A model generated the notes under the pieces. That model had not been told where the DNA came from and ran no database searches. It was given only the letters and a program-made list of their open reading frames with translations. Shown here in pieces: positions 23,940-50,638 of a stretch of DNA of 64,000 nucleotides. The translations under genes were made by a program, and so were the position numbers. How positions within the stretch are numbered: the first letter of the stretch is position 1; every line of letters starts with the position of its first letter. The stretch is from Candidatus Nanoarchaeia archaeon (GTDB lineage Archaea > Nanobdellota > Nanobdellia > Woesearchaeales > SKIA01). The stretch lies in contig JANQNG010000059.1 of NCBI GenBank assembly GCA_028279685.1, positions 62,001-126,000 on the forward strand, in the 5' to 3' direction.

Positions 23940-24090
23940 ATTCAGATATGCTATATTATTCATGATACGCACCACTGCGCTTCGTGTTATATGCGCAATT
24001 TAATAGATCCTTCGCGGTTATAACAATTCTATATATGTTTAGAGTACTTCTCTAGGTAGTAGTGCTCTGAGTTGAAAATAATAATCCTTA
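23940..24090. repeat. Intergenic structured sequence related to the 49.9-kb MITE-like element
   Basis: The 23892-24115 gap has no gene. It contains GCACCACTGCGCTTCGTGT (23969-23987), 18 of 19 identical to the reverse complement of 49982-50000 inside the MITE-like element. Nearby are GTTATA...TATAAC (about 23986-24025) and AGAGTACT...AGTGCTCT (about 24040-24067) pairings. It may be a decayed relative. TATA-like CTATATATG (about 24030) could serve the pilin operon. Confidence 0.5.
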
Positions 24091-33184: not shown

Positions 33185-33449
33185 TCTTTCAGCAGCTTTG
33201 CACATAAATTCAATAAGTAATGAAAAAGTTTAATAATCCTACTCCATTTAGCATAACCATATACTTCGTATAGTGAACATGCTAAATTCCGTCTGGCCAT
33301 GCCATCATTACCTCTGGTAATGAGTGGCATTGATGGCGCTGCTCAGAATTTGAAAAATTCTGGCAGACTCAAAAATCTTTGATTTTTGTTTCAGACGAAT
33401 TATTAAACTTTTTCTCCAAGAATAATTTATGTGCAAAGCATCTTTCAGC
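33185..33449. mobile_element. MITE-like element with 9-bp target duplication and four hairpins
   Basis: TCTTTCAGC occurs at 33185-33193 and 33441-33449, flanking a 247-bp element. Its ends are inverted repeats: AGCTTTGCACATAAATT (33194-33210) and its complement (33424-33440), 16 of 17 matching. Inside is a second perfect pair, GAAAAAGTTTAATAAT (33222-33237 with 33399-33414). Between these sit four arms: ATTTAGCAT...ATGCTAAAT, CATTACC-TCT-GGTAATG, CAGAATTT-GAA-AAATTCTG and CAAAAATC-TTT-GATTTTTG. No ORF is present. It fills most of the 33091-33493 gap. Confidence 0.8.
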
Positions 33450-49854: not shown

Positions 49855-50156
49855 TAGCCAGAAGGCTCTGTAGAAATGCTTTAAAGACATACAATTATTT
49901 GTTATGCACTACTGCCTAGCGAAGTACTCTAGTGATGTATTTATTTGCTATAATTGATTTGCTTCTTTAATTGCACATGGTACACGAAGCGCAGTAGTGC
50001 ATAACATACATGCTGACAATACTGCGCTTCACTTTTTAATGCAGACCATTGCGTAATTCGATTATATTCCTCAGATAAGCAATATGATAGTTACGCTAGG
50101 CAGTATTGTCAGCAATGTTCTTATTTAAATAGCATTTCTACAGAGTCTAGCCAGAA
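49855..50156. mobile_element. MITE-like element with 9-bp target duplication and two large stem arms
   Basis: TAGCCAGAA occurs at 49855-49863 and 50148-50156. The 284-bp element between starts GGCTCTGTAGAAATGCT (49864-49880) and ends with its complement (50131-50147; one mismatch in 17). Inside are two perfect 15-bp inverted pairs: GTTATGCACTACTGC (49901-49915 with 49991-50005) and TGCTGACAATACTGC (50011-50025 with 50100-50114). No ORF is present. It fills the 49846-50191 gap. The GGCTCTG end recalls some IS6 or IS1595 ends, but I cannot assign a family. Confidence 0.8.
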
Positions 50157-50191: not shown

Positions 50192-50638
50192 ATGGCTCCT
50201 AAGAAGAAAATTAAAAAGAAGAAAGTAAAGAAGAAGGCTAAGAAAAAGAAGAGTGTAAAGAAGAAAAAGAAGGCTAAAAAGAAACCCAAGAAAAAGGTAA
50301 AGAAAAAGAAAAAAACTAAGAAAAGAGCCCAAACAGCAAAGAAGAAAAAACGTAAAAAGAAAGATGATGATGTTCCTTCAATAAAAGATATGCCTGTTCT
50401 GGATGAGAGCTTGCTTACTGCTGAGGAACCTCAGAGTGAAGAACAACCAATAGAAGAAGAATCTACCGAAGAAGAAACTTCTCTGGAAGAAGAGAAGCCT
50501 GTTGATGTTGATGATATTCTTATGCAAGAAGAAAAACCTAAAGAGAAGAAAAAGCCTAAGAAAGAAAAAGGACGTATTCATTGGAAAGATGAACCTGATG
50601 AAGATGCTATAAAAATAGATATCAAATTCACTGATTAA
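50192..50638 (+). CDS. Lys-rich low-complexity protein
   Basis: The product is 148 residues. The first 55 are almost all Lys (MAPKKKIKKKKVKKKAKKKK...). An acidic middle follows (about 75-115), then a mixed end (KGRIHWKDEPDEDAIKIDIKF). It resembles tails of DNA- or ribosome-binding proteins such as the eS1 tail in this genome. The TATA box TTTATATATT (about 50163) gives a leaderless ATG. It may be a nucleoid or RNA-binding protein, which is inference. The next gene is prs. Confidence 0.6.
   Translation: MAPKKKIKKKKVKKKAKKKKSVKKKKKAKKKPKKKVKKKKKTKKRAQTAKKKKRKKKDDDVPSIKDMPVLDESLLTAEEPQSEEQPIEEESTEEETSLEEEKPVDVDDILMQEEKPKEKKKPKKEKGRIHWKDEPDEDAIKIDIKFTD

Follow-up and report, generated by a model that had tools for sequence, protein, structure and literature searches.

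A probable IS5-family miniature element carrying a convergent doublet of a structured repeat unit in a woesearchaeal archaeon

A non-coding element of 284 bp was identified at positions 49864-50147 of a 64,000-nucleotide stretch (hereafter the window) of the genome of a Candidatus Nanoarchaeia archaeon of the order Woesearchaeales (assembly GCA_028279685.1, contig JANQNG010000059.1, positions 62,001 to 126,000). It is considered likely that this element is an IS5-family miniature inverted-repeat transposable element (MITE) carrying a convergent doublet of an independent structured unit whose fold is maintained. The outer element is an ordinary IS5-type MITE, and the two stems in its interior close two convergent copies of one structured unit of approximately 110 nt. 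A first-pass annotation of the sequence had described a MITE-like element with inverted ends and a 9-bp target duplication, and this was confirmed by the perfect TAGCCAGAA repeats and by 17-bp ends that are identical at 16 of 17 positions (one mismatch). Its description of two perfect 15-bp stems was correct as to perfect pairing, although one stem is of 16 bp rather than 15, and the inner stem ends read as it had claimed (TACTGC followed by CTAGCG, and TACTGC followed by GCTTC). What it overlooked is that the stems belong to an independent, genome-wide family of structured repeats. The element was found to fold far better than shuffled sequences, both as DNA (z -8.0) and as RNA (z -9.2). Its features are as follows.

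49855-49863, no strand: left target duplication TAGCCAGAA, 9 bp, repeated exactly at 50148-50156; best length among the 5-12 bp tried
50148-50156, no strand: right target duplication TAGCCAGAA, 9 bp, from sequence inspection
49864-49880, plus strand: left terminal inverted repeat GGCTCTGTAGAAATGCT, 17 bp, shared with the ends of IS5-family insertion sequences
50131-50147, minus strand: right terminal inverted repeat GACTCTGTAGAAATGCT (as reverse complement)
49898-50008, plus strand: structured unit 1 (forward), covariance model R1, 100.4 bits, E 9.5e-20; among the sequences used to build the model
49900-49915, plus strand: 5' arm of the unit 1 stem, 16 bp, 100% complementary to 49991-50006
49991-50006, plus strand: 3' arm of the unit 1 stem, pairing perfectly with 49900-49915
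49916-49925, plus strand: 5' side of the unit 1 core, with bulge CTA, pairs GC, loop GAA and pairs GT
49984-49990, plus strand: 3' side of the unit 1 core, with AC, GAA and GC
50008-50117, minus strand: structured unit 2 (reverse, facing unit 1), covariance model R1, 80.4 bits, E 2.3e-15; also in the model alignment
50011-50025 and 50100-50114: unit 2 stem, 15 bp, perfect
50090-50099, minus strand: 5' side of the unit 2 core, with bulge CTA, GC, GTA and AC (AC being compensatory to the opposite GT)
50026-50032, minus strand: 3' side of the unit 2 core, with GT, GAA and GC

The unit is built on a stem of at least 12 bp, which is followed by a 3-nt bulge and GC/GC pairs. A symmetric GNA/GNA loop separates these from GT/AC pairs, beyond which lies a variable loop of approximately 60 nt. 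Twenty units were aligned by sequence alone, and an independent prediction from this alignment returned a 12-pair stem, followed by a 3-nt bulge and by a 3x3 loop with two pairs on either side of it, with 13 of the 16 predicted pairs changed on both sides. Covariance model R1 was built from the same 20 units, its structure following the independent prediction. Later unit alignments were fitted to the model's own structure, and the pair counts obtained from them therefore lean towards it. Among the rows of the element's own genome (designated G000; 1.9 Mb, 80 contigs, 91.9% complete), 95.6% of 1369 cells were paired and 306 double changes were counted, above all 500 shuffles. Rows of a second genome, G010, had 97.6% of 509 cells paired, again with double changes above all 500 shuffles, while 62 rows from other genomes had 95.4% of 972 cells paired and 233 double changes versus 65.5 in shuffled alignments (reached in 0 of 500). 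Counts of pairing, loop motif and R box for the own genome rest on 90 rows, among which 8 antisense rows remain, and alignment A4 includes 2 antisense rows.

The motif G-N-A was present on both sides of the internal loop in 63 of 90 own rows, 30 of 33 rows of G010 and 44 of 62 rows from other genomes, with a GA/GA variant in 7 of the latter 62. Within the own rows (the first 78 rows of alignment A2), the loop G and A were found to be 95-100% conserved, with the middle bases at about 50%. A conserved G and A around a variable middle base is the signature expected of sheared G.A pairs. Judged from this pattern, the GNA/GNA loop probably forms such pairs, and the same conservation favours the forward strand as the one that folds. 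A search against Rfam returned only tRNA and 5S matches at the gathering threshold, with nothing below E 2.8 on the window element.

R1 matches in the own genome numbered 76, with 82 places on the stretches fetched from it (about 80 units). The unit listing held 90 rows, of which 8 antisense re-readings were removed to leave 82 rows for the counts of arrangement, ends and promoters; one unit overlapping another (L033 3927) was also left out of the cluster counts. One unit elsewhere on the window lies outside the element:

23961-24073, minus strand: solo unit, R1, 81.3 bits, in the model alignment; without ends or duplication when searched

The 63 clusters of the own genome comprised 47 single units, 12 convergent doublets, two triplets ending in a convergent pair and two direct pairs. 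Convergent doublets make up 12 of the 16 multi-unit clusters (chance of at least 12 about 4e-5, at 1/4 per order), and all 11 multi-unit clusters of G010 were convergent.

Units are found singly, as convergent doublets, and in elements whose ends fall into three or more unrelated sets. Elements carrying it have GGCTCTGT ends in G000 and in the genomes G307 and G310; in G348, G074 and G127 their ends resemble, by eye, GGTTAAGTTAC or GGCAAAGTCAAG; and in G010 TAYRTGCATAGC terminates the outer stem and the duplication is about 10 bp long. Direct repeats matching at 9 or more of 10 positions were found for 13 of 22 clusters in G010, versus 8.9% of mispaired controls. At one solo unit of the own genome (L084), a perfect 10-bp repeat, TGATGATTAA, immediately adjoins the stem; no mispaired control reached this score. 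Since several unrelated ends surround the unit, it does not belong to a single transposon system.

The main rival explanation concerns the solo units, and holds that all units are old MITEs with eroded ends, whose pairing derives from recent master copies or from template-switch correction of palindromes, and which have no function. End-bearing MITEs do carry the same doublets in G000 and G307, the convergent order is that of a two-ended element, and the placement of units avoids genes. Most units are, however, unique in sequence and nonetheless have 95.6% of cells paired with 306 double changes, the unpaired loop G and A are kept at a level that correction of palindromes would not explain, and units sit in elements with unrelated ends. 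The kept loop bases and the near-perfect pairing of barely similar copies weaken this explanation, which is regarded as possible though doubtful.

Other structured cargo was observed among these elements. Some MITEs of G307 (for example L207, L214 and L217) carry a hairpin other than the unit, and versions of 400-470 bp exist. In G304, MITEs with GGCTCTGTCCTAAAT ends were found at L186 and L196, the latter enclosing another hairpin (GGTTAGCAGC.../...GCTGCTAACC) that represents a second kind of structured cargo.

Units of the own genome lie between genes, mostly near stop codons, with 5 of the 63 clusters overlapping an open frame of more than 100 amino acids (by crude gene calls). The median distance of a unit was 13 bases to gene 3' ends and 64.5 bases to 5' ends. 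Three results weigh against the preferred interpretation of the element and its unit: a common fold of the loop of approximately 60 nt was not found among the aligned units; most own units are without ends or duplication, the distribution of duplication scores being close to that of the control; and unit orientation relative to tandem genes is random (13 with, 12 against), which argues against a role in mRNA. This last result also bears on a second explanation, under which the units represent structured RNA, either a family of small RNA genes or an element of transcript 3' ends, and were later captured by MITEs. Sheared G.A loops, a bulge and covariation are typical of RNA, and units are closer to gene 3' ends than to 5' ends; against these stand the random orientation, the missing Rfam match, the convergence of all 11 multi-unit clusters of G010 and a count of TATA-like sites, among 43 solos, that was no higher towards the 5' side of units (15) than from the other side (22). 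Origin as a structured RNA is considered rather unlikely, and an RNA gene with its own promoter was rejected on the TATA-like sites.

Further observations were made on individual units. Two units in direct order, of which one matches the model weakly, occupy L083 2021-2317 (G000:C1) next to a 5S rRNA gene on the opposite strand, which the second unit slightly overlaps. The units at L030 8801-8911 and L067 2163-2273 lie on different contigs, are near-identical by eye at both ends and each sit beside a second unit, which may reflect a recent duplication without transposon ends. The 3.4 kb between two units at L070 were considered as a candidate full-length element, which was rejected because no transposase was recognised by eye in the listed frames, no family scan having been made there. 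Directly downstream of the MITE, the window contains a lysine-rich open frame (50192-50638; 148 amino acids, with long KKK runs).

Regarding the outer element, a search of the own genome revealed a full-length second copy with 93% identity (G000:C79:95831-96109), which has its own duplication, AATTCATAA/AAATCATAA, matching at 8 of 9 positions. A third relative (C18:97287-97547) shares the same ends and plan, also with an 8/9 duplication. Fifteen further matches to the element in this genome were partial (about 40-120 bp), each to one piece of it. Additional copies with related ends on contigs C6, C7, C36 and C57 are interrupted by contig ends, suggesting that the assembly broke on the repeated element. 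On C36, a lone right-hand end was observed (L016 1499-1517), its reverse strand reading GGCTCTGTAGAATTGCT, with no left partner seen.

The window contains another MITE at 33194-33440 (33185-33449 with duplications), with ends WGCTTTGCACATAAATT and a 9-bp duplication, TCTTTCAGC. The palindromes in its interior are different ones, the unit model has no match there, and partial copies of this MITE were found on C72, C28 and C27. The earlier suggestion that a related transposase serves both window elements is plausible and was supported in part, as both have 9-bp duplications and ends of the form xGCTYTG.

Insertion sequences with GGCTCTG termini and 9-bp duplications, which had been named as the relatives to look for, are present in the same order and encode IS5-family transposases. 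These IS5-family insertion sequences of Woesearchaeota are approximately 0.9 kb in length and have GGCTCTGTnnnAAAT ends. When 352 genomes of the order were scanned for the end pattern, GGCTCTGTMNNAAAT ends were identified in 98, and controls using the backward pattern gave counts near zero. In the 1.1 Mb of G307 alone, 71 forward and 70 reverse GGCTCTGT-type ends were counted with one mismatch permitted, against 0 in the control. In G051, an end pair 908 bp apart (L234) encloses a transposase of 283 amino acids that matches PF01609 with 62.1 bits (cut-off 23, E 7.8e-17), and relatives of this protein were found in 116 of the 352 genomes. GGCTCTGTnnnAAAT-like ends were also identified on other loci with IS5-type insertion sequences (for example L236, L253, L255 and L257). 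It had been argued that full-length relatives with other duplication lengths would speak against a related transposase; for GGCTCTG ends this was not the outcome, with 8 of the 30 insertion sequence loci examined having perfect 9-bp duplications, one an 8/9 duplication and two perfect 10-bp duplications, while the remainder were cut by contig ends or lacked a duplication. The 40 listed MITE end pairs (mispaired ends included) gave 17 perfect 9-bp duplications and 5 more of 8/9. A 9-bp duplication is typical of the IS903 group of IS5. The portion of one study consulted places an IS5 element in the IS903 group and gives duplications of 1-9 bp for the families it covered (PMC11708052).

Several points count against this assignment. 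Although the best NCBIfam model for the L234 protein is an IS5 one (E 6.7e-40), the score of 137.4 bits falls just short of the NCBI cut-off of 140. L234, the reference insertion sequence, is itself without a clean duplication (4 of 9 positions mismatched), and the insertion sequences and the MITE have their ends alone in common. Relatives of the L234 transposase gave 0 matches in G000 (91.9% complete), and PF01609 was found in 0 of 7 carrier genomes searched, which is why the transposase was reached through the end-pattern scan of the order. As no cognate insertion sequence was found in G000, the element would be a MITE that is moved in trans, or one that is stranded. The definition of an IS5-family MITE does not require a cognate autonomous element in the same genome, but mobility of the MITE in G000 is putative. 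Terminal inverted repeats shared with the insertion sequences, the same duplication length and an IS5-family transposase, all read from sequence, support placing the window MITE in the IS5 family. The question of its transposase is largely answered, and the element was probably moved by an enzyme of the IS5 type.

The element is similar to known IS5-family MITEs in being short, non-coding and intergenic, with IS5-type inverted ends, a 9-bp duplication and several copies. It differs from these in having an independent structured repeat, in doublet form, as its interior, and in that the cognate insertion sequence was not found in G000. Transcripts of Correia- and ERIC-type (enterobacterial repetitive intergenic consensus) MITEs likewise fold and may affect neighbouring mRNAs, according to the part of a 2024 review of prokaryotic MITEs that was consulted (PMC10969869), whereas here one folded module recurs alone and inside elements with unrelated ends.

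Mobilisation on hairpins by a Y1 transposase, of the type associated with repetitive extragenic palindromic (REP) sequences (RAYT, REP-associated tyrosine transposase), was weighed as a third explanation and is thought very unlikely. The Y1 family (PF01797) was absent from G000, G010, G307, G256 and three other genomes, and present in 3 of 10 carriers tested; Y1 enzymes are not known to leave target duplications of 9-10 bp. The mechanism is largely refuted for G000 unless a Y1 gene lies in the missing approximately 8% of the genome. In its inverted doublets and singlets, extragenic placement and compensatory changes, the unit does fit the description of REP doublets forming hairpins (REPINs) in the published text consulted (PMC3116915). 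In layout it is a REPIN-like structured repeat, but 7 of 10 carriers tested, G000 included, have no REPIN transposase. It differs from bacterial REPINs in that the archaeal unit is of approximately 110 nt, compared to 20-40 bp for REP sequences in the part of the source consulted (PMC3733652), and in that some copies have DDE-type (Asp-Asp-Glu) ends with 9-10-bp duplications.

Integron attC recombination sites share with the unit a variable sequence and a conserved fold. Such sites carry the R-box pair RYYYAAC/GTTRRRY, which none of the 185 alignment rows had at its ends, and the units are scattered among ordinary genes and form convergent doublets, with no direct cassette arrays. Although attC sites have been reported in archaea including Nanoarchaeota, in the portion of the report consulted (PMC9668308), identity of the unit with attC is extremely improbable, and was rejected on the missing R boxes and the arrangement.

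Matches to the unit were found in 20 of 352 genomes of the order (own genome included), but not in any of three genomes of the same family, and a draw of 378 genomes of the class gave five matches, all from the same order. These multi-genome searches scored 9 or 10 candidates per genome, and copy numbers are therefore lower bounds. In a collection of named sequences, all 19 archaeal pattern matches were confirmed by the model, on contigs of Woesearchaeota or Nanoarchaeota metagenome-assembled genomes and one 'uncultured archaeon'. None of the bacterial pattern matches (11 of 30 stretches) was confirmed by the model below E 0.07, nor any of 12 pattern matches on viral contigs at E 0.1. The distribution of the unit is patchy, as for a mobile element.

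Taken at its preferred reading, the MITE would be mobilised by an IS5-type DDE transposase that cuts and joins the 17-bp ends in trans and leaves the 9-bp duplication; ends, duplications and transposase family were observed in relatives, and from these we infer the act of transposition. In single-stranded form, whether DNA or RNA, each unit's forward strand would adopt the stem-bulge-loop structure supported by covariation. Most likely it is the fold itself that is maintained. The fold may mark displaced single-stranded DNA for a mobilising or host factor, or it may act as a structure at transcript ends, and location near stop codons would make carriage of the unit harmless. A broader proposal is offered tentatively: the unit could be an archaeal structured mobile module of a new class. 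It would be a tandem-G.A hairpin that, in the form of single-stranded DNA (or RNA), moves by transposition or is recognised by a factor; several unrelated transposon systems would have acquired it, and selection would keep it copy by copy at gene ends across Woesearchaeota.

Mobile elements of Woesearchaeota were found to be almost undescribed in the open-access literature searched, and in the part consulted of the 2024 review, the archaeal MITEs named are from Sulfolobus, Halobacterium, Haloquadratum and others, the term DPANN being absent from the review (PMC10969869). The present analysis connects a MITE system with 9-bp duplications, throughout the order, with a transposase of the IS5 type. 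It also provides a covariance model for a repeat that is strongly conserved in structure and has no Rfam family match. It is unusual for a MITE to keep a fold while both sequence and transposon ends change, and this points to a directly testable function.
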